From assembly GCA_017439675.1 (NCBI GenBank), contig JAFSIQ010000016.1:1-38937 (forward strand): DNA of 38,937 nt, read 5' to 3'. Below the pieces are notes generated by a model. The model was not told where the DNA came from. It worked only from the letters and a program-made list of their open reading frames with translations, and ran no database searches. The position numbers were made by a program, and so were the translations under genes. Below, piece by piece: positions 20,271 through 38,286 of the stretch (its first letter is position 1; every line of letters starts with the position of its first letter). Origin of the DNA: Lachnospiraceae bacterium (GTDB lineage: Bacteria; Bacillota; Clostridia; Lachnospirales; Lachnospiraceae).

Positions 20271-21081
20271 GCACAGCAAATGGCTTGCAATGCCTTTTAC
20301 CGTGTGGGCCACCATTTTCATCATCATTCCACTTTTCATGATTTTGTACTATGGATTTGTGAATGGCGAAGGGACTTTCACATGGGAAAACATCTTAGCA
20401 ATCGGCGAACCGGAACATTTAAAAGCTTTGGGGATTTCCATCGTGTTATCCCTAATTGCCACTGTTATCTGTCTGGTGCTGGCTTACCCCCTCGCTATGA
20501 TACTTTCAAGACTCGGCATAAACCAGAACAGCTTTATTGTATTGATTTTCATATTACCAATGTGGATGAACTTCCTGCTTCGCACCCTAGCATGGCAAAC
20601 ACTGTTAGAAAAGACAGGCGTTATTAACTCCATCCTTTCTTTCCTACATTTACCGGCATTGAATATTATCAATACCCCTTATGCCATCGTACTTGGTATG
20701 GTATACAACTTTTTGCCATTTATGGTATTGCCAATTTACAATGCCATTATCAAACTGGATAAAGACGTTATCAACGCCGCAAGAGACTTAGGCGCCAATG
20801 GTGCCCAGACCTTTACTAAGGTAATCTTCCCTCTTACACTTCCAGGTGTCATCAGCGGAATTACCATGGTATTTATCCCTGCCCTTACCACCTTCGTTAT
20901 TTCCAACCTACTTGGTGGAGGCAAAATTTTGCTAATCGGTAATGTCATTGAACAGGAATTCACCCAAGCTAGCAACTGGAACTTGGGAAGTGGACTTTCA
21001 ACGGTTATGATGTTATTCATCGTAATCAGTATGATTCTATCGTCCATCTTCGACAAAGACGGGGAAGGAGGAATGTTCTAA
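20260..21081 (+). CDS. potB: spermidine/putrescine ABC transporter permease PotB
   Basis: 273-aa inner membrane permease with about six helices. The EAA loop is visible as [20 protein letters not shown], and [16 protein letters not shown] is typical of PotB. The start codon is TTG at 20260, with GAGGAGG 9 nt upstream; no closer ATG has a ribosome site. It overlaps the end of potA, and its stop TAA overlaps the ATG of potCD by one base, indicating coupled translation of the whole importer. Confidence 0.95.
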
Positions 21082-22979
21082 TGAAGAAGTTTATTGAACG
21101 TTTTTACGTGGCTATCATTTTTGTATTTCTCTATGCTCCGATTGTAACCTTGATGGTGCTATCCTTTAACCAGAGCAAGACCCGTTCCAAATGGGGGGGC
21201 TTTACCACAGAGTGGTACTCTGCCTTGTTTAAAAATGATGCCATTATGCAGGCACTCTACAATACGTTGTTCATTGCAATCGCATCCTCAGTAGTTGCTA
21301 CCATCATTGGAACGATTACCTGTATCGCGCTCTACAACATGAAGAGCCGTACCCGTAATGCAATGCTCGCAGTAAACAACATACCTATGTTGAATGCGGA
21401 TATTGTTACTGGTATTTCATTGATGTTGTTATTTATTAGCTTCGGTATGAGATTTGGTATGGAAACCATATTGCTTGCGCATATAACATTTAATATCCCA
21501 TATGTCATCTTAAACGTTATGCCAAAGTTCAAGCAGTTAAACCCTAACACCTACGAAGCTGCGTTAGATTTGGGGGCTTCTCCAATCTATGCCTTTTTCA
21601 AGGTGATTCTGCCAGAGATTATGCCAGGAATCCTTTCCGGATTTTTGATGGCATTTACGATGTCTCTTGATGACTTTATTATTACGCACTTTACAAAGGG
21701 TGCCGGTGTGGACACACTTTCCACTAAGATATATAGTGAGGTACGAAAGGGAATCAAACCGGAAATGTATGCCCTCTCCACCATCATTTTCTTAACTGTA
21801 TTTGTATTATTGCTGATTGTAAATGTTGCACCTGCACAGAAAGAAAAACGCATGGCATTAGAGCGCGAAGCTGCCAAAAATGGTATTATAAAGAAATCTC
21901 TTTTCAAGCCACGCACCAAGAAATGGATGAATCGTATTGTGGCTGTCATTCTTACCATTGCATTGATTATTGGTTCTGTACAGCTTTACAAGAAAAGCGG
22001 TGGAACGAATCAGGTTGTAGTGTACAATTGGGGTGAATACATTGACCCTATCGTGCTTGAGATGTTTACAGAAGAAACCGGAATTGAGGTTATCTATGAC
22101 GAATATGAAACCAACGAGGTTATGTATCCAAAGGTGGCAAGTGGTGCAACCCAGTATGACATCGTATGCCCTTCCGATTACATGATTCAGAAAATGTTGG
22201 AAAATGATATGCTCGCAGAAATTGATTTTGACAACATTCCAAATATCAAACATATTGATGAGAATTACATGATTCAGTCACGTGAGTTTGACCCAGAAAA
22301 CAAATACAGTGTTCCTTACTGCGTTGGAACTGTTGGTATTCTTTACAACAAGACTATGGTAGAGGAGCCAATCGATTCCTGGGACGTACTTTGGGATGAG
22401 CGTTACAAGGACAACATTTTGATGCAGGATTCGGTAAGAGATGCATTTATGGTGTCTTTGAAGCGACTTGGATATTCTATGAACTCAACAAATCCAGATG
22501 AATTGGAAGAAGCTAAGGAAGATTTGATTGCGCAAAAGCCATTGACACAGGCTTACGTTGTGGACCAGGTTCGCGATAAGATGATTGGAAACGAAGCTGC
22601 TATTGGCGTAATTTATTCCGGTGAAGCCATCTATACACAAATGGAAAATCCAGATTTGGAATATGTGATTCCAAAGGAAGGAACCAATGTATGGATTGAC
22701 TCCTGGTGTATCTTAAAGGATGCTCCGAATAAGGAAAATGCGGAAGCATTCATTAATTTCCTATGTCGCCCAGATATTGCGCTAATCAACTTTGAGTACA
22801 TTACCTATACCACTCCAAATGTGGAAGGCCGAGCATTAATTGAAGACGAAGCAATCCGTAACAGCGAGATTGCTTTTCCGGATTTGTCAAAGTATGAAAA
22901 CCTAGAAACCTTCCGTTACTTAGGAGAAGATGCCGACCGCATGTATAACAATTTATGGAAAGAAGTAAAGTCAGAGTAG
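21081..22979 (+). CDS. potCD: fused permease and substrate-binding protein PotC-PotD
   Basis: 632-aa fusion. Residues 1-250 are a PotC permease with about six helices and EAA loop EAALDLGASPIYAFFKVILP (159-178). A basic linker (about 253-282) and an extra helix (about 284-303) lead to an external PotD polyamine-binding domain that starts near residue 310 (VVVYNWGEYIDPIVLEMF). PotD features are YDIVCPSDYMIQKM, the ligand-pocket stretch VPYCVGTVGILYN and IDSWCILKDAPN. No stop, frameshift or internal ribosome site separates the halves. The fused design tethers one binding domain to the channel instead of a lipoprotein anchor. Such PotCD fusions occur in Clostridia. Confidence 0.95.
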   Translation: MKKFIERFYVAIIFVFLYAPIVTLMVLSFNQSKTRSKWGGFTTEWYSALFKNDAIMQALYNTLFIAIASSVVATIIGTITCIALYNMKSRTRNAMLAVNNIPMLNADIVTGISLMLLFISFGMRFGMETILLAHITFNIPYVILNVMPKFKQLNPNTYEAALDLGASPIYAFFKVILPEIMPGILSGFLMAFTMSLDDFIITHFTKGAGVDTLSTKIYSEVRKGIKPEMYALSTIIFLTVFVLLLIVNVAPAQKEKRMALEREAAKNGIIKKSLFKPRTKKWMNRIVAVILTIALIIGSVQLYKKSGGTNQVVVYNWGEYIDPIVLEMFTEETGIEVIYDEYETNEVMYPKVASGATQYDIVCPSDYMIQKMLENDMLAEIDFDNIPNIKHIDENYMIQSREFDPENKYSVPYCVGTVGILYNKTMVEEPIDSWDVLWDERYKDNILMQDSVRDAFMVSLKRLGYSMNSTNPDELEEAKEDLIAQKPLTQAYVVDQVRDKMIGNEAAIGVIYSGEAIYTQMENPDLEYVIPKEGTNVWIDSWCILKDAPNKENAEAFINFLCRPDIALINFEYITYTTPNVEGRALIEDEAIRNSEIAFPDLSKYENLETFRYLGEDADRMYNNLWKEVKSE

Positions 22980-23995: not shown

Positions 23996-26266
23996 TTACA
24001 TCTGATAAAATTTCAAATTCTCTTTCAGTTCCGCAGTTATGGTTCCACCTGCTTTTTCATACTTATCATACACGCCTGTGAAGCGTTGTAGCTTCTTCGC
24101 CACTTCGCTCTCAAATTGGGTTATGGTTCCCTGATAGATTGGATTCGCCGAAAGCTCATTGCGGATTGCCTTTACAAACGGACAGTGAATGCTGAGAATT
24201 TCTCTAGTCACCTTATTCAAACGAAAGCTTCCCTTTGATTCAAACTTCATCCAATTGATATAGTCTCTCACAAACACTTCACGGAAATTGTTCTTAGCCC
24301 GAACCAAAGCACCTTTTATCTTTTCCTTGACCTCTGCAGACAAGTCACGATTCTTACGATAAAACTGTAGATATGTACAATATTCTGCGGTAAGAGAATG
24401 TTCTCGCACATCGTTCCAACGGACACCTTCTACCCTACGACACATCTCCCAACGGAAACGTCCCACAACCTCTAACATCATGTCGTCCAAATCCATTGCA
24501 GTGAGAATCGGGAACATAAATCGTCCCGGTGTATTACTGCGCAAACCTGAAATCTCCTGCCACATAGCAACTCTAGAACCCGCATTCGGCATGAGAATAA
24601 TATCTGGCAACACTTCTTTCATAATTCTCTCACAATTGATTCCATGCTCTACATCCGAAAACATCACTTCCCGATAGAACACAGAATAATCCACTTTACG
24701 CACTTCATTCATAGCAAGTTCTAACCGCTCAGCTGTCACCAACATTTTGTCTACAGAATTAATCAAATCTTGTTTACATAATATAGGGGTAAATGTGGTA
24801 ATCTTACCGTAAGTAAGCTTATTGCAGGATGCAAACATATTCTTAATCTCGAATTCCACCATCTTTTCCCGATTATTCTGTAGCATTTCATACTGCTGCT
24901 GATTCAGCTTACCAGTCTTCAACAAATCGGCCAGATAGACCTGATAATCCATTTCCAAATCATTCTTAGACGTCTCTTTCTCACCATGATAGATTGCCTT
25001 CAACCACTCATAAATGGTATAGATATGCTCCGAATGACAAATGTCCATGTGTGCTACTGTATCGTATAATTCCTTTGCTCGTTCCTCTCCCACTAGCGAC
25101 AAATCCATAAATCCAAAATGCAAAAACATTTCTAGCACCGGTGTCAAGGTAGACTCATCCTTCACTGCTCGTAGGAATACCTTCTGGTATATTTCGTAGT
25201 ATAGAGAAGTCAGCTTCTTTCGCAAACCATAAACCTCTTTGTCCATAGAGGTCATATCCGGCAATTCCTGATACTCATGAATCTGATTGCAAATGACAAG
25301 TGCATCATCATCATTATACCCAGCATACTCCAAGATATGTCCAAGGCAGTCTTCCGTGAGAATATCCATCTCCTTGCGTACCACTGCACTTCCCGTTGCA
25401 TTTTCATTGCCAACATTCTCAAAGTCATATTCTTTGAACTCTTTCAAACGACGAATGACTGTTCTTGGATTATATACACCTAATTTGTCTGCCACTTTTG
25501 CAATCAACTGAATCTCTTTTGCTGCCGGTTCAATATCAAACTTCTTAAGCTTAATCTTAATTGCCAAATCAAAGAACAACTGGAACAAGTCACTTTGCAT
25601 ATCGTTCAGCAAAATATCTTTATTATAGGTTAGATAATTCTCCATCTCCCAAACACCCTGGGTGAAACGACGCATTTGAAAAGACGCCTCCATAATGACA
25701 CCAACTGTCATACTGTCATCCTTTTCCATTAGTTGCAAATACTCTTGTAAGTAATTGTGTACAATACTGGCACTGTTATTCACTTCCCATTCCTCCGCCT
25801 TGTGTTGCATCTCAAGAGGATGAAACAACTCCATGCGAAGGAAACTCAACTGTTCAACTTTGTACTTCAAACAGAGATTCTTGTAATCATTAAATACCGT
25901 CTCTACAAACATATGAAACTGTCTTGTCTTGCTGTTCAATTCCGCATACAGCTTCAACATCTGCTGGCGCTGTTCCACCGCTGCTCGCAAGAATATTCCT
26001 CGCAGCTTTTCCTGACCCGACAACAGCTTTTTCAAATCTTCCGCACCATCACAGGTAAACTCCGCCAATACCGTATCTTCTGTTGCGATATAATCACACA
26101 GATACATATCTTTTTCTAATATACCGATTAATGCATTTTTTCCAAGAGAGACCTCTGACACCTCGAACTTCTGTGTCACACTTCCCTCCTGAATCAAATA
26201 CCAATGTTGTACCATATCATTCCGTTTTGCAATTGTCTGTCCACGTTGAAACTTTACTAATTCCAT
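23996..26266 (-). CDS. large cytoplasmic protein with N-terminal cNMP-binding domain, unknown function
   Basis: 756-aa protein. Residues about 1-110 resemble a CRP/FNR-type cyclic nucleotide-binding barrel (VKFQRGQTIAKRND, then WYLIQEGSVTQKFEVSEVS), but no DNA-binding helix-turn-helix follows at the usual place. Residues 110-756 are mainly helical and match no family that I can name; they contain patches such as MPNAGSRVAMWQEISGLRSN and RFMFPILTAMDLDDMM. No signal peptide or membrane helix is present. The ATG at 26266 has AGAGGG upstream. It lies 94 bp downstream of the FtsX permease on the same strand and no strong terminator separates them, so it may be part of the manganese-riboswitch transcript. 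Its role is unknown; a ligand-sensing scaffold or enzyme is possible. Confidence 0.75.
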   Translation of the reverse strand: MELVKFQRGQTIAKRNDMVQHWYLIQEGSVTQKFEVSEVSLGKNALIGILEKDMYLCDYIATEDTVLAEFTCDGAEDLKKLLSGQEKLRGIFLRAAVEQRQQMLKLYAELNSKTRQFHMFVETVFNDYKNLCLKYKVEQLSFLRMELFHPLEMQHKAEEWEVNNSASIVHNYLQEYLQLMEKDDSMTVGVIMEASFQMRRFTQGVWEMENYLTYNKDILLNDMQSDLFQLFFDLAIKIKLKKFDIEPAAKEIQLIAKVADKLGVYNPRTVIRRLKEFKEYDFENVGNENATGSAVVRKEMDILTEDCLGHILEYAGYNDDDALVICNQIHEYQELPDMTSMDKEVYGLRKKLTSLYYEIYQKVFLRAVKDESTLTPVLEMFLHFGFMDLSLVGEERAKELYDTVAHMDICHSEHIYTIYEWLKAIYHGEKETSKNDLEMDYQVYLADLLKTGKLNQQQYEMLQNNREKMVEFEIKNMFASCNKLTYGKITTFTPILCKQDLINSVDKMLVTAERLELAMNEVRKVDYSVFYREVMFSDVEHGINCERIMKEVLPDIILMPNAGSRVAMWQEISGLRSNTPGRFMFPILTAMDLDDMMLEVVGRFRWEMCRRVEGVRWNDVREHSLTAEYCTYLQFYRKNRDLSAEVKEKIKGALVRAKNNFREVFVRDYINWMKFESKGSFRLNKVTREILSIHCPFVKAIRNELSANPIYQGTITQFESEVAKKLQRFTGVYDKYEKAGGTITAELKENLKFYQM

Positions 26267-26360: not shown

Positions 26361-28613
26361 TTACTCTACGTTTTTCAACGCCATATCCATCGGCACCTTC
26401 TTTACTTTTCCATATTGCTTCCATGCAATCACCGCATAGGAAAGAATTCCTGCTGAAACCACTGCAACGTAGGCATACGTTGGTACGTAGTATGGGAACC
26501 ACCCCGAAAAGCTGGATGTCATAACAACACATGCATATTTCATCAATTGATCCACCAATGGCAACGTCACAATAATGGATAAAATTACCACAATGGTAGT
26601 TGACATAATGTAAAGTCCTCCAATTTCAGTATTGGTATACCCAAGAATTTTTGTCATGGAGATGGATTGCGCATTCTTCTCAATAATAATCTTGGAAAGA
26701 AGATAGATAATCAGCATGAACATAACCACACCAAAACCAAACATCATATCCATCATAGAGCCCATGGAATCAATCAGTTGTCTCGACGTCTTCGTCATAT
26801 CACTGACCGTAATCTGTGTTGCGATATACATTTCGTCAATATCTTCAATCTCTGTATTTGAGAAATAACCGCTATAATAATCCGCTTCATAGTCAAAGGT
26901 CTCATTGAAATGCTCCTGCGACATAAACACCGCCAAACTGGATGGATAATGATAAATACCTTGAACATCAAAGTTATATTTTTTACCTCCAAACTCTTTT
27001 AACTCAACTGTGTCACCCTCCGATATGTGATATTTTTCCGAAAATGCATCGGAAATATATACTTCATCATCCGCCAACTCAATATCAATATATTCACTAT
27101 CTGCCACAATGCCAAACAAAGTAGCATCCTCTTCACGACCATTTTCTGCTACATAAGTAAGACTTCCTGCACAGTATTTCTCCGCATCCTCTACCTCTGT
27201 ATCTACTGGTGCTTTCAAAATATATTGATAGTCACAAATCATGTTGTCTGCAATATCGTCCTCATACTTGTTCAACAGGGAAGGAAATGCAATTCCAAGC
27301 AATAGAATAACATTTGCAAAAAAGATTCCCACAAAAATCATAATATAATTTGGCATATTCTGAAAAATAATACGCATGCGGAACCGCTTCATGATTCCAA
27401 TCTTAGTATTCAGACGAATTGCCTTTTTCTTTTGTCGCTTACTCAAATCACGACGGAGAAATTTCAGCGGAGAAAGCTTTAATTTACTGACTAAAATCAC
27501 ATAGTTAATTACAATCACAAGAATAACTGGAACTACAGTAGTTTTAATAAATGCATCTGCATTCCACAACACTTCATAGGTGGTTAAACTGTAGCTTGCA
27601 AAGTACATATTCTCCGCAACAGTTCTAAAACAGGTATAGCCTAACACGTTACCAACAAGTGCCGAAAACAAAGTAACTAACACTGGCATTGTCATATAAT
27701 GACGAAGCAGTTCTCCTCTGGAATAACCTGATGCCCTAAGAGTTCCAATTACCGTTGATTCCTTGGCAATCGTATTATTTGTAGTGATTGCAAATATAAA
27801 TGCAATGATTGCCACTACAATATAAAGAAACACCATCATTACCATGTAATCATTTCCCAAATCATTACCAGCGAAATGAATTGCCATATTACAATATTCT
27901 GGAATATATTCTGTCACCATTGCATTGTCAACCAGTACCTCTAATAGGTCGTCTGCCATTTCCTTCGCCTGCGCATCATCTTTCGGTGCCTCATCATACT
28001 TCCATGAATAACTATAGTGGAAACCTCCCTTACCAAAGCTGTCAAAGGTTTCCTCTGTCACAACGCCAATACCGAACATATTGGCATCAAACATCATATC
28101 CGATGGGCTAGAAAGCATGGTGCTGTAATCTGGTAACGCAACAAAACCTGTTACCTCCATTTCCTTAAAGCCAACCTTCAAGGTGTCGCCCACTGCAACA
28201 CCATTGTTCTGTGCATACACTCTATCAATAGCAATTTCATTTGTGTCTGTCGGCATTTCGCCTTCCATCACACATTCTAAGTTTACTTCCTCACGCATTT
28301 TGAACATACGCAAGGTGCTTTCAAAATCCTTAGTATCCTTTTCTATGTAATAATTTTCATAGATTGTTACATCTTCCTTTTCTAATGTTTCAATCAAAGC
28401 TTCATCTGCTTCATAGAAAAGTTCAAAATTACCATCCTCAATATTGTACTTTTCAAAGGTCTCACCAAAGGTAACCTTCATACTTGCAGAAGATACAAGG
28501 AAACCGGAAACAAATCCGATTACTATCAGAAAAAACAAAAAGATTACCAGATATTTTCCAAATTCACTTTTTAATTCCCTTGGTAAACGTTTTATCAGTG
28601 GATTTCTCATCAT
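26361..28613 (-). CDS. FtsX-like ABC transporter permease
   Basis: 750-aa membrane protein with an N-terminal helix (about 21-40), a large outside domain, an FtsX three-helix block (about 260-390), a further helix near 430, a second outside domain and a C-terminal FtsX block (about 625-740). This is the two-FtsX architecture of MacB/LolE/BceB-like transporters, which mostly perform mechanotransmission or export of peptides, lipids or antibiotics. The ATG at 28613 and a second ATG at 28610 both follow AAGGGGG, so the start is uncertain by one codon. It is 9 bp downstream of its ATPase. No histidine kinase of BceRS type is adjacent. Placement behind a manganese riboswitch suggests a link to manganese excess. 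Confidence 0.9.
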   Translation of the reverse strand: MMRNPLIKRLPRELKSEFGKYLVIFLFFLIVIGFVSGFLVSSASMKVTFGETFEKYNIEDGNFELFYEADEALIETLEKEDVTIYENYYIEKDTKDFESTLRMFKMREEVNLECVMEGEMPTDTNEIAIDRVYAQNNGVAVGDTLKVGFKEMEVTGFVALPDYSTMLSSPSDMMFDANMFGIGVVTEETFDSFGKGGFHYSYSWKYDEAPKDDAQAKEMADDLLEVLVDNAMVTEYIPEYCNMAIHFAGNDLGNDYMVMMVFLYIVVAIIAFIFAITTNNTIAKESTVIGTLRASGYSRGELLRHYMTMPVLVTLFSALVGNVLGYTCFRTVAENMYFASYSLTTYEVLWNADAFIKTTVVPVILVIVINYVILVSKLKLSPLKFLRRDLSKRQKKKAIRLNTKIGIMKRFRMRIIFQNMPNYIMIFVGIFFANVILLLGIAFPSLLNKYEDDIADNMICDYQYILKAPVDTEVEDAEKYCAGSLTYVAENGREEDATLFGIVADSEYIDIELADDEVYISDAFSEKYHISEGDTVELKEFGGKKYNFDVQGIYHYPSSLAVFMSQEHFNETFDYEADYYSGYFSNTEIEDIDEMYIATQITVSDMTKTSRQLIDSMGSMMDMMFGFGVVMFMLIIYLLSKIIIEKNAQSISMTKILGYTNTEIGGLYIMSTTIVVILSIIVTLPLVDQLMKYACVVMTSSFSGWFPYYVPTYAYVAVVSAGILSYAVIAWKQYGKVKKVPMDMALKNVE

Positions 28614-28622
28614 CGCACCCCC

Positions 28623-29321
28623 TTACCAATCAAGCTCTACAGCTGGCGTCTTTGTTTCATTGACATAATTCTTCCGAATCATTCCATCGCGAAGCTTGAT
28701 GACGCGGTCTGCCATATCCTTGATTGCATCATTGTGGGTAACCATTACCACGGTGTTACCATATTTCTGATTCACTTCCTCAATAAGCTTCAAGATTTCC
28801 TTTGAGGTATTATAATCAAGTGCACCAGTTGGTTCATCACAAAGAAGAATGTCTGGGTTTTTCACAATTGCACGGCCGATAGCTGTTCTTTGCTGCTGTC
28901 CACCAGAAAGCTGATTTGGCAATTTGTGGCGGTGCTCATAAAGACCAAGGGTATGTAACAGTTCATCCACATCCAACGGATTGTCACTTAAATATGCACC
29001 CACTTCAATATTTTCTTTGATATTCAAATTAGGGATTAGATTGTACATCTGAAAGATGTATCCAAGATGTTTTCTGCGATATAAAGTAAGGGTTTTCTCA
29101 TTCATATCTGCTGTTTTCTCACCATTAATAGAAATGTAACCACTGTCTGCATTGTCAATTCCACCAATAATATTTAACAAAGTGGACTTGCCGGAACCAG
29201 AAGGACCAAGCAAGACACAAATCTCGCCTTTCTCAATTCCCACATCAATTCCCTTTAATACTTCTGTTTTACTCTCACCTTCACCAAAACTTTTTTTGAT
29301 ACTACTGATTTCTAAAAACAT
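28623..29321 (-). CDS. ABC transporter ATPase, LolD/MacB-like
   Basis: 232-aa ATPase of the FtsX-associated class. Walker A is [13 protein letters not shown], the Q-loop is [10 protein letters not shown], the signature is [15 protein letters not shown], Walker B is [12 protein letters not shown] and the switch His is in MVTHND. The ATG at 29321 was chosen because AGGAGGG lies 8 nt upstream; a longer reading from 29375 runs through the second terminator-like hairpin and is unlikely. It is the first gene after the manganese riboswitch and is followed by its permease partner. Confidence 0.95.
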
Positions 29322-29386
29322 ATTTTTCTCCCTCCTGTGACTAGTAGATAACCATACATTGCAAGCATAGCTCATTGTAAATACAA

Positions 29387-29423
29387 AATCCTAACCATAA
29401 CCGCTACCGTTATGATTAGGATT
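29387..29423 (-). terminator. second terminator-like hairpin in the riboswitch leader
   Basis: A 15-bp stem with one wobble (29387-29401 with 29409-29423, 7-nt loop), whose minus-strand exit is TTTTGTATTT. It lies 18 nt after the riboswitch terminator and before the ABC genes. No clear partner strand that would open it was found. Confidence 0.7.
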
Positions 29424-29441
29424 CATCAATTCAATATAAAA

Positions 29442-29557
29442 AGACTCCATGCATAACAATAACGATACACATGAGTCTCGCAATTTAAAACAAGCCAGGT
29501 CTGCGACCATGATGTTGACTTGCCACGTTCTAAGAACGCCTGCTACTCCCTCACAGG
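29442..29557 (-). promoter_or_regulatory. yybP-ykoY manganese riboswitch with expression platform
   Basis: The minus-strand aptamer spans 29468-29557. It has the yybP-ykoY loop GAGGGAGTAGC at the 5' side, hairpin CGTTC/GAACG, then AGTCAACATCATGG with hairpin GGTC-GCA-GACC, a pairing AAGTCA/TGGCTT, and GCGAGACTC at the 3' side. P1 is TGTGAG with CTCATG. The 3' strand of P1 overlaps the 5' arm of a terminator (29470-29478 with 29442-29451, then TTTTTAT), so ligand binding should block termination: ON with Mn2+. This class senses Mn2+. Its downstream genes here are the ABC ATPase and FtsX permease. Confidence 0.85.
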
Positions 29558-29572
29558 ATTTTTGTTGAATAC

Positions 29573-29601
29573 ATAATAACAATGTAAGATTCATTTGTCA
29601 A
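29573..29601 (-). promoter_or_regulatory. promoter of the manganese riboswitch transcript
   Basis: On the minus strand TTGACA (29596-29601), a 17-bp spacer and TATTAT (29573-29578). It lies between the mntP stop (29649) and the aptamer, so the riboswitch RNA starts independently of mntP. Confidence 0.85.
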
Positions 29602-29648: not shown

Positions 29649-30236
29649 TTAGAACATTCCACTTACAAATATTTCAATACCAATGGCAATTAAGATAATC
29701 CCACCCAATATAGATGCCTTACTTGCAAGCTTTGTTCCAAATCTTTTACCGATGACAACTCCTGTAACACAGATAAAAAATGTTACCATTGCAATAAGCA
29801 ATGCACAAACTACCGCCATAATCCAGTTGTAATCAGAAATAGTGAAACCCACCGATAATGCATCAATAGACGTGGCAATTCCCTGCACTACAAGCGCAGA
29901 TAAACCAAGTGTGGATTGCACCTCTTCTTCATCCTGTCCCGGATGCATACCTTCCCACAACATCTTACCACCAATAAACAATAACAAAATCAATGCAATC
30001 CATGGTATCATCCCTTGAAATCCCTTAAAAATCCTCGCTAGGTTATGTACGCAAAACCATCCTACTATAGGCATCAATGCCTGAAAAAAAGCAAACATGC
30101 CTGCAATTTGGCAAACCTTCTTTGCTTTCATCTTGGGTTCATTTAACCCATTTGCAAGAGACACCGAAAATGCATCCATCGCAAGCCCTACTCCTAATAA
30201 AATGCTATTGGTAACAAATCCCACACCCCAAACCAT
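29649..30236 (-). CDS. mntP: manganese efflux pump MntP
   Basis: 195-aa MntP (DUF204) protein with six predicted membrane helices in two repeated halves. Each half has the key Asp motif: LAMDAFSVSLANG near the N-terminus and TSIDALSVGFTI in the middle. It exports Mn2+ when the metal is in excess. The ATG at 30236 has GGAGG 7 nt upstream. It starts 15 bp after ung, so it is co-transcribed with ung and has no riboswitch in front of it; a manganese riboswitch instead begins just after its stop, which is unusual because this class normally precedes mntP. Confidence 0.95.
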   Translation of the reverse strand: MVWGVGFVTNSILLGVGLAMDAFSVSLANGLNEPKMKAKKVCQIAGMFAFFQALMPIVGWFCVHNLARIFKGFQGMIPWIALILLLFIGGKMLWEGMHPGQDEEEVQSTLGLSALVVQGIATSIDALSVGFTISDYNWIMAVVCALLIAMVTFFICVTGVVIGKRFGTKLASKASILGGIILIAIGIEIFVSGMF

Positions 30237-31057: not shown

Positions 31058-31162
31058 AGCGATAGCGATTTCACTTGCTTGCAAGGGTGAAATCGCGAGC
31101 TGGATTGCATGCGAAGCAGGCAATATAGCGATAGCATATCCACTTGCTTGCAAGGGTGAAAT
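31056..31162 (+). repeat. tandem 69-bp repeat with hairpins in amidase leader
   Basis: ATAGCGATAGC occurs at 31056 and 31125, and CACTTGCTTGCAAGGGTGAAAT-type sequence at 31072 and 31141, both with a 69-bp period (the second unit is partial). The first unit folds with arms GCGATTTCA (31065-31073) and TGAAATCGC (31088-31096) plus an inner CTTGC/GCAAG. The repeats end about 10 bp before the ribosome site. Confidence 0.8.
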
Positions 31163-31187
31163 GTAATTTACAGGAGGGATTATATAC

Positions 31188-32819: not shown

Positions 32820-32842
32820 AGTCACCTCATATTTTAAATTCT

Positions 32843-32897
32843 TTCGCCAAATAGACAACTGCATGCAAGCATGCTTGTCTACTTGGCTCATTGTATA
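32843..32897. repeat. palindromic repeat, copy A
   Basis: A 55-bp unit identical to copy B at 32969-33023. It folds as a long hairpin: GCCAA-N-TAGACAA with TTGTCTA-N-TTGGC, around GCATGC-AA-GCATGC. Confidence 0.85.
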
Positions 32898-32901
32898 ATC
32901 G

Positions 32902-32967
32902 AGTAGGCTAATTCCTACTCGCTTGTATACTTCGTACATCATCTCGCTTATCAGCTCGATGATGTAC
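32902..32967. repeat. two further hairpins between the palindromic repeats
   Basis: CGAGTAGG with CCTACTCG (around 32900-32921, 6-nt loop), then GTACATCATC with GATGATGTAC (32934-32967, 14-nt loop). Together with the flanking copies, four hairpins are lined up in the HAD gene leader. Confidence 0.7.
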
Positions 32968-32968
32968 A

Positions 32969-33023
32969 TTCGCCAAATAGACAACTGCATGCAAGCATGC
33001 TTGTCTACTTGGCTCATTGTATA
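32969..33023. repeat. palindromic repeat, copy B
   Basis: Perfect 55-bp duplicate of copy A, 126 bp apart and in the same orientation. It borders the chemoreceptor terminator. Confidence 0.85.
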
Positions 33024-38047: not shown

Positions 38048-38153
38048 GGCTTTGTACCTCCATAATAAATGTTTAAACAACTATTCTAACACCCCACTAT
38101 TATAATGCCGTTTGTTCCGTGCTTTGCACTCCCACAACCGACTATAACACAAA

Positions 38154-38181
38154 AGAAGTGGACAGCAAACTACCCACTTCT
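38154..38181 (-). terminator. leader terminator of infC operon (attenuator candidate)
   Basis: The 8-bp perfect arms AGAAGTGG/CCACTTCT extend by four weaker pairs, and the minus-strand exit is TTTTGTGTT. The hairpin lies between the predicted transcription start (about 38279) and infC. It fits the attenuation leaders known for infC-rpmI-rplT in Firmicutes, which respond to L20. An upstream 5-bp hairpin (AGAGT/ACTCT, about 38247-38260) is part of the leader. Confidence 0.65.
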
Positions 38182-38286
38182 ATTAGAAAACATACTAAAA
38201 TCATCTAATATTCAACCCGAGTCGCCTCTTGCGCTAAGGTGAGAGTGGATACTCTACTTTGTTGTTATTCGTCACACGACTTGAAT

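Follow-up and report, generated by a model that had tools for sequence, protein, structure and literature searches.

The leader in front of an ABC–FtsX gene pair on the minus strand of the window (the whole analysed stretch of 38,937 nucleotides, contig JAFSIQ010000016.1 of a Lachnospiraceae bacterium) is probably a divergent but genuine Mn2+ (yybP-ykoY) riboswitch, which would act as a transcriptional ON switch for its own ABC–FtsX unit. Judged from the tree of the permeases, the pairing of this RNA with the transporter is inherited in one FtsX clade and scattered in other FtsX lineages. The features of the locus are listed below in the direction of transcription, with the evidence for each in brackets; R1 is the covariance model described in the next section.

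29649..30236 (-): mntP, upstream of and outside the riboswitch unit (Pfam Mntp, 128.8 bits)
29573..29601 (-): promoter TTGACA-17-TATTAT (11/12 consensus matches)
29468..29561 (-): Mn2+ (yybP-ykoY type) aptamer with P1, a short inner helix, the P2 hairpin and P3 with the L3 loop (R1 match, covariation)
29512..29519 (-): L3 core GUCAACAU, with the adenine discriminating Mn2+ (conservation of UCAAC)
29443..29477 (-): hairpin 1, its 5' arm being the 3' strand of P1, with a U-rich tail in the window (present in 94/97 leaders)
29452..29461 (-): strand A of the proposed antiterminator, UAUUGUUAUG, located within hairpin 1 (pairs with 29414-29405)
29405..29414 (-): strand B of the proposed antiterminator, CAUAACGGUA, located within hairpin 2, partly in its 5' arm and partly in its loop (duplex with strand A)
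29387..29423 (-): hairpin 2, the putative main intrinsic terminator (16-pair terminator-like site, -19.7 kcal/mol)
29328..29336 (-): ribosome-binding site AGGAGGGAG of the ABC gene (sequence)
28623..29321 (-): ABC ATPase of the BceA/MacB/LolD type, 232 aa (Pfam ABC_tran, 119 bits, above cut-off)
26361..28613 (-): FtsX-type permease, 750 aa (Pfam FtsX, 66.6 bits, above cut-off)
23996..26266 (-): 756-aa protein, weakly matching a cNMP-binding domain and lying outside the unit (Pfam cNMP_binding, 22.1 bits against a cut-off of 27.5)

The stop codon of the ABC gene and the start of FtsX are separated by 9 nt, and the feature of FtsX-type (type VII) systems, a permease and an ABC ATPase in one unit, is present with both proteins above their Pfam cut-offs. 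Upstream, mntP follows ung (UDG, Pfam 68.8 bits) at a distance of 15 nt, as was expected from the earlier note on this DNA, which had tied mntP to ung. The same note had claimed a promoter of its own for the aptamer, and TTGACA-17-TATTAT indeed lies ahead of it, 47 nt behind the mntP stop. Taken by itself, this pattern is weak support, because a scan of 7.5 kb listed 31 sites against 24.4 expected in shuffled sequences; three of the sites, the window promoter included, had 11/12 matches. In 28 of the 29 related units described below, the 75 nt preceding the aptamer include a loose promoter pattern, which starts with TTGAC in 26 cases, a count given without a chance level.

Identity and class of the aptamer

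The aptamer forms the first 94 nt of the leader and includes the motifs GGGAGUAG (L1), GUCAACAU (L3) and CGAGA. The fold of the 186-nt leader had a z-score of -4.27 and was better than those of all 200 shuffled sequences. The Infernal search with the Rfam yybP-ykoY model, proposed earlier as a check, turned out negative at the Rfam threshold: Rfam 15 at the gathering threshold gave no riboswitch match in the window leader, and with lax settings RF00080 reached 13.9 bits on the aptamer (cut-off 45, E 0.071). Lax matches to models of snoRNAs and miRNAs were put down to chance. Also the window's own genome, which is 70% complete, gave no matches to RF00080, and a separate covariance model, R1, was therefore built from five relative aptamers, the window aptamer among them, with 22 pairs. 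When RF00080 was run on 20 related loci, some of them situated before mntP, none reached 45 bits, the best among the seven matches listed being 25.1. The gathering score is a threshold set by curators and describes no structural feature of the RNA. The low Rfam score thus reflects the Rfam model more than the window RNA, because all 20 related loci, including those preceding mntP, score below 45. This indicates that the present Rfam model of the Mn2+ class misses many Clostridia members, and a revised model looks needed.

A DNA search of 26 genomes of the genus found the leader in four genomes, the window's included, at five places. The five aptamers have 22 common pairs with 98.1% of the cells paired, and double changes were present in seven pairs compared with 2.1 in shuffled alignments (0/500). 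R1 gave the window aptamer, itself a training sequence, a score of 115.8 bits, and matched 8 of the 26 genus genomes and 190 of 397 genomes of the family. As a positive control, the mntP leader of E. coli K-12 was the best of the 12 R1 matches in 6 kb (E 3.6e-4, the next 0.35), which establishes homology to an experimentally known member, one such member having been tried. As a negative control, 40 random loci (680 kb) gave no R1 matches at E 0.1.

In an alignment of 97 distinct sequences, 17 of the 22 pairs had double changes, the covariation score was 0.522 against 0.251 in shuffles, P1 was paired in 96% of the cells, and structures slid along the alignment dropped to 21–57% paired; the 28 sequences from FtsX units alone had 72 double-change cells against 20 in shuffles, both alignments having been fitted to R1, which favours the model. 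The outermost P1 pair was unpaired in 15 of these 28 sequences. The L1 motif GGGAGUA was present in 29/29 ABC–FtsX units and 97/98 riboswitch loci, and the L3 motif UCAAC in 28/29 and 94/98, respectively. The adenine of L3 discriminates Mn2+ according to the cited part of PMC6754395. The covariation under R1, the recovery of the E. coli mntP leader as top match and the kept core motifs uphold the RNA class that had been assigned from the sequence in the earlier note.

The predicted structure includes only P1, P2 and P3, with an unpaired linker at the possible site of a fourth junction helix, which was not predicted; the aligned E. coli mntP leader is even shorter at this place. The crystal structures of the Mn2+ riboswitch have a four-way junction, as described in the consulted section of PMC6754395; this junction is not taken here to define the class.

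Genes under the riboswitch and the pairing with ABC–FtsX

The genes following the RNA were surveyed in 98 riboswitch loci, which are the higher-scoring R1 matches, a subset of those in the 190 genomes, with the window included. The first substantial gene on the same strand was mntP in 54 loci, a P-type ATPase gene in 12 and a gene of the Na/Ca-exchanger type in nine. Rarer first genes were GDT1 (two loci), MgtE (one) and a glycosyltransferase (one), and none was assigned in six loci. The ABC gene of an ABC–FtsX pair came first in 11 loci, ten by ORF calling and one (L027, the same as L115) by a full-length tblastn match, and the window and two genus mates make up three of the 11. In addition, one locus had an HlyD–ABC–FtsX set and one a heptad-repeat protein followed by ABC–FtsX. 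One representative of each target-gene class was checked by Pfam. The ORF picker took overlapping frames at L027/L115 and L327, and genes may likewise have escaped it at some of the six unassigned loci. Among the ORFs of the random loci, one of 686 was FtsX-like (Fisher p 6e-9 for 10/98).

The order ung–mntP–RNA–ABC–FtsX is kept in the genus mates L002 and L003. At the other genus-level places the gene directly after the RNA is a second mntP (L005) or a glycosyltransferase gene (L004). The claim in the earlier note that the riboswitch drives the transporter and not mntP therefore holds at the window; as a general statement it does not, since the same RNA precedes mntP in 54/98 loci, including the second mntP at L005/L014.

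Some of the loci are unusual in themselves. In the genus mate with L005/L014 (G004:C37) mntP is present in two copies: the copy at L002 follows ung, and the riboswitch precedes the other. In L004/L009 (G014:C87) the gene directly following the aptamer (L009 1501-1593, -) encodes a UDP-glycosyltransferase (374 aa, Pfam UDPGT), an unusual target. At L114 (G265:C58, 3195-7000) a leader with a single hairpin is followed by an HlyD-type protein, ABC and FtsX, a MacAB-like set, and at L116 (G358:C28, 2235-12500) the riboswitch is followed by a 665-aa heptad-repeat protein, ABC, FtsX and a further ABC gene, which by resemblance we take to be peptidase-like. The riboswitch–ABC–FtsX unit of L108 (G359:C4, 1-12501) lies between two FeoB genes, and behind it are a FeoB-associated/HMA-like protein, DUF6110 and a P1B-like ATPase. 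The unit at L109 belongs to another FtsX subfamily.

In a reverse test the GTDB genomes were searched with an FtsX alignment, the query being led by the window protein and the RNA left unused. The test set consisted of the best 80 of the 561 FtsX relatives among the matches listed, those nearest to the window protein. An R1 match with E 1.2e-13 or better, always on the coding strand, was present in 29 of the 80, while none of the 40 random loci had the RNA. FtsX is present in these 29 units by construction. In all of them the RNA ended about 800–980 nt before FtsX, and the ABC gene followed it directly (28 units, and L327 by tblastn). The RNA was found in 27 of the first 32 relatives in the list, and among the other five L313 has only 172 nt of upstream sequence. 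By their record names the carriers are Lachnospiraceae (12), Oscillospiraceae (7), Ruminococcus (5), Clostridium (2), and Clostridia, Ruminiclostridium and Clostridiales (one each), and their sources, where given, are gut sites of roe deer, goat, water deer or sheep. The target and the survey of relatives put forward in the earlier note are thus borne out, since 29 of these 80 relatives also have the RNA–ABC–FtsX unit.

Besides ABC and FtsX, no gene was present in more than three of the 29 neighbourhoods, the labels of the sequence search aside and with some contigs ending close. The unit therefore consists of riboswitch, ABC and FtsX, and its place behind mntP appears as a local feature of the window. 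Of ung, mntP and the cNMP gene around the 29 units, all occurrences were in L296, from the genus mate G003. The earlier note had also brought in the cNMP-domain protein as a possible partner, which was not supported. Among 13 neighbourhoods (the window and L105–L116) its gene follows FtsX in the window and G003 only, and in L110 a relative lies at another place, on the opposite strand. Within the reach of the contigs, the gene follows FtsX in one of the 29 units, again in G003. It also has a promoter-like site of its own (TTGCCC-17-TATAAT, 26337-26309, -), and as an operon partner it was ruled out on account of this site and its lack of conservation next to the unit.

That all ABC–FtsX orthologues carry the RNA was ruled out as well, with carriers numbering only 6/59 and 2/80 in two other sets. 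The RNA was lacking in 53 of the 59 relatives of the first set (12 of the 59 being only 25–28% identical), in 51 of the 80 nearest relatives (some cut by contig ends) and in 78 of the 80 of the further set (20 of them from another subfamily). L136 had a weak R1 match of 27.1 bits, and the same place (L193) was unmatched in a second scan. With the filters off, eight further loci gave no convincing R1 match (best 14.2 bits).

The FastTree phylogeny included 166 FtsX proteins, 43 of them with the RNA. The 173 original rows were reduced by four duplicates (L296, L302, L339 and L352), L313 without upstream DNA and two identical rows, and the program gave a long-branch warning for L109 and L112. The window protein was placed in a clade of 31 rows with a support of 99, of which 29 have the RNA; two members with upstream DNA, L308 and L317, lack it. 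The RNA label changed 13 times on the tree, 12 of the changes being forced by well-supported branches, compared with 38 in shuffles, counts that cannot separate gain from loss. Fourteen carriers were scattered outside the clade, including L349 and L324 from the reverse-test search and L193, whose label rests on the weak match. These are over-sampled, because most of them (L105–L116) were included for carrying the RNA.

Two other accounts of the RNA bear on these results. A divergent subclass might sense another ion or metabolite, the link to ABC–FtsX then reflecting that ligand, and the aptamer score far under the RF00080 cut-off and the UDP-glycosyltransferase gene under the same RNA at L009 would agree with this; the account is nevertheless improbable in view of the Mn2+ core motifs, retained nearly throughout the 98 loci, and of mntP as the commonest target of the RNA. 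More improbable still, to the point of being hardly credible, is that the RNA belongs to mntP, for instance as its 3' end, with the ABC genes as bystanders. In the window the aptamer does start 88 nt past the mntP stop, and two genus mates have the same order ung–mntP–RNA, but the aptamer has its own promoter, and in 28 of the 29 units no mntP was found in the DNA covered around the RNA, which still lies just before the ABC gene.

Expression platform and transporter function

The expression platform was compared in 97 leaders, L090 of the 98 loci being too short. Hairpin 1, a termination-side hairpin overlapped by the P1 switch helix, was present in 94 of them. A second hairpin was found in 59 leaders by a detector that demanded a U-rich tail, and its tail is therefore no independent evidence; the detector overlooked second hairpins in L007, L015 and L023. 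The 35 leaders with hairpin 1 alone had a U-run at its end in 33 cases. In the 59 leaders with two hairpins, base pairing is possible between the 5' arm of hairpin 2 and the loop plus 3' arm of hairpin 1. The mean energy of this pairing was -12.4 kcal/mol for the own arms, -9.1 for arms of other loci and -5.9 for shuffles. The own pair beat 95% of the shuffles in 45/59 leaders and the cross-locus median in 51/59, and it beat 95% of the arms of other loci in only 10/59. In the FtsX units, after L309, L319 and L322 were left out of the 29, both hairpins were present in 20 of 26 leaders, 17 of these 20 beat the shuffles, and the means were -14.1 for own, -11.7 for cross-locus and -6.9 for shuffled pairs. 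The duplex of strands A and B in the window has an energy of -14.0 kcal/mol, with p 0.01 against shuffles and p 0.12 across loci, so that it is not exceptional in comparison to other loci.

These pairings may form a relay, in which P1 excludes hairpin 1 and the antiterminator excludes hairpin 2. RNA polymerase would start at TTGACA/TATTAT. At low Mn2+ the 3' strand of P1 would fold into hairpin 1 and hide the antiterminator strand, and transcription would be stopped by hairpin 2 and, in the window, perhaps also by hairpin 1 with its U-rich tail. At high Mn2+ the docking of L1 and L3 around the ion would hold P1 so that hairpin 1 cannot form, and the freed 3' arm of hairpin 1 would pair with the 5' arm of hairpin 2, giving read-through into ABC–FtsX.

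The nearest solved chains of the ABC subunit were BceA, MacB and YtrE. The permease had no significant sequence relative among the solved structures, the best being MacB at E 0.11. Mn2+ exporters such as MntP have acidic or His ligands inside their membrane segments, and FtsX-type transporters act on peptides, lipids and lipoproteins or in mechanotransmission. In 145 FtsX homologues, no Asp, Glu or His was conserved at 90% or more in the hydrophobic segments, as defined by hydropathy. An Mn2+-induced envelope transporter is therefore favoured over an Mn2+ pump. Residues of ligand type marking the riboswitch clade were only Asp510, Met408 and Tyr708, and Asp510 was present in 87% of the clade compared with 18% outside. 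Tentatively, and with nearly as much chance of being right as wrong, ABC–FtsX is read not as an Mn2+ pump but as an FtsX/type VII envelope transporter that would act at the membrane when Mn2+ is in excess and move or pull a lipid, lipopeptide or peptide there. The recurring pairing suggests that the transporter helps cells to cope with excess manganese. It is also conceivable, if doubtful, that the FtsX clade is a dedicated envelope defence of gut Clostridia against manganese stress, driven by ATP and wired through a relay riboswitch. A general role in divalent-metal stress could be considered here, because the wider family is partly found in neighbourhoods with Fur, DtxR, CsoR, FeoB or P-type ATPases.

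Both the relay and the envelope function have to be weighed against other accounts. Two ordinary terminators in a row, of which only hairpin 1 is regulated and without any relay helix, are a rather unlikely arrangement. A one-terminator switch is possible in the window because also hairpin 1 has a U-rich tail (UUUUUAUAUU directly behind it); among the 94 leaders with hairpin 1 the 35 without a detected second hairpin mostly end in a U-run, as in L. lactis, and few own arm pairs (10/59) stand out from those of other loci. Against this, a strong U-tail (6 of 8) follows hairpin 1 in only 22 of the 59 two-hairpin leaders and hairpin 2 in 40, although hairpin 2 was picked for its U-richness; with an unregulated second terminator the operon would stay silent, and the arm-to-arm fit exceeds the shuffles in 45/59. 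For the transporter, the alternative is that ABC–FtsX itself exports Mn2+ or a metal complex as a new type of efflux system doing the work of MntP. The other targets of the RNA, which are mostly known or likely cation exporters, the clade-marking Asp510 and the unit between two FeoB genes (L108) agree with this, as do the 16 of 60 orthologue loci with FeoB, FeoA, Fur, DtxR, CsoR, a P1B-type ATPase or MntP, compared with 1 of 40 random loci (p 0.001). The metal-gene neighbourhood is a lead, because the metal seeds were taken from the case loci, which favours the result; the 60 loci were drawn from an orthologue list with loci already in use passed over, two of them have the RNA, one of these being among the 16, and the 40 random loci and 20 loci of another FtsX subfamily were hand-chosen. 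Metal genes were present also at 4/20 loci of that subfamily and in 3/12 riboswitch neighbourhoods (L105–L116, chosen for carrying the RNA), two of these via the adjacent mntP. With no conserved Asp, Glu or His in the hydrophobic segments, ligand-type clade markers limited to three residues, the peptide, lipid, lipoprotein and mechanotransmission roles of FtsX-type transporters and an mntP already next door in the window, the exporter is judged unlikely, and the envelope transporter is preferred.

Near 9 of the 60 ABC–FtsX orthologue loci there was a heptad-repeat protein similar to that of L116. The gene names P1B and heptad/YhgE-like are presumptive labels of ours: Pfam gave only E1-E2_ATPase for the protein named P1B and nothing above cut-off for the heptad/YhgE-like one.

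Comparison with known systems

The yybP-ykoY riboswitch of L. lactis (RF00080) shares with the window the L1 motif GGGAGUAG and the UCA core of L3. Also the P1 switch helix with its 3' strand continuing into a terminator-side hairpin is common to both, and the ON logic of the window would follow from this likeness; in the portion of PMC11087558 used, P1.1 stabilised by Mn2+ prevents one terminator in L. lactis and gives an ON switch. The window differs in having two hairpins with a possible relay strand compared with the one terminator of that account (PMC11087558), in the lack of a predicted fourth junction helix, in scoring below the Rfam cut-off and in its ABC–FtsX target. In the extract of a review (PMC11477304) Mn2+ riboswitches are called OFF switches, which we take to be a slip. 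The E. coli mntP leader (PMC11647493, PMC9603457, both cited in part) was the top match of R1 and has the same core motifs as the window; unlike the window, its switch is translational, as stated in the relevant part of PMC11647493, and its target gene is another one. The ABC ATPase of the window is closest to BceA and MacB of the MacB/BceAB/LolD-LolF systems, with which the unit shares FtsX domains, and the differences from these are the lack of an adjacent HlyD partner in the window unit and of a significant solved relative for its permease.

The riboswitch class and the FtsX-type transporters are already known, while the target, the inherited pairing and the possible relay platform appear to be new. 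The proposed relay-type platform differs from the L. lactis model. Many targets of yybP-ykoY RNAs are transporters of unknown substrates according to the cited passage of PMC3766115, and these could include ABC genes. In the open-access literature, no paper joining an Mn2+ riboswitch with an FtsX transporter was found, and published target lists could name ABC genes. Riboswitch targets have repeatedly revealed gene functions. Through a pairing that is passed on within one clade and also turns up in further lineages, an orphan FtsX-type ABC transporter gains a candidate physiological signal, Mn2+ excess, which makes its function directly testable.

The remaining part of the window includes some further features. 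At about 21081-22979 (+) one frame of 632 aa seems to be a fusion of an ABC permease with a further domain, the permease being presumably of the PotC type by resemblance. Repeats lie at 31060-31175 and 32840-33020: a short unit, TTTCACCCTTGCAAGCAAGTG, is present twice between ung and an amidase gene, and the start of a HAD-like frame has two copies of another unit, read as MSQVDKHACMQLSIWR. An L20 leader at 38144-38265 (-) scored just above its Rfam cut-off (59.7 vs 58.7 bits).
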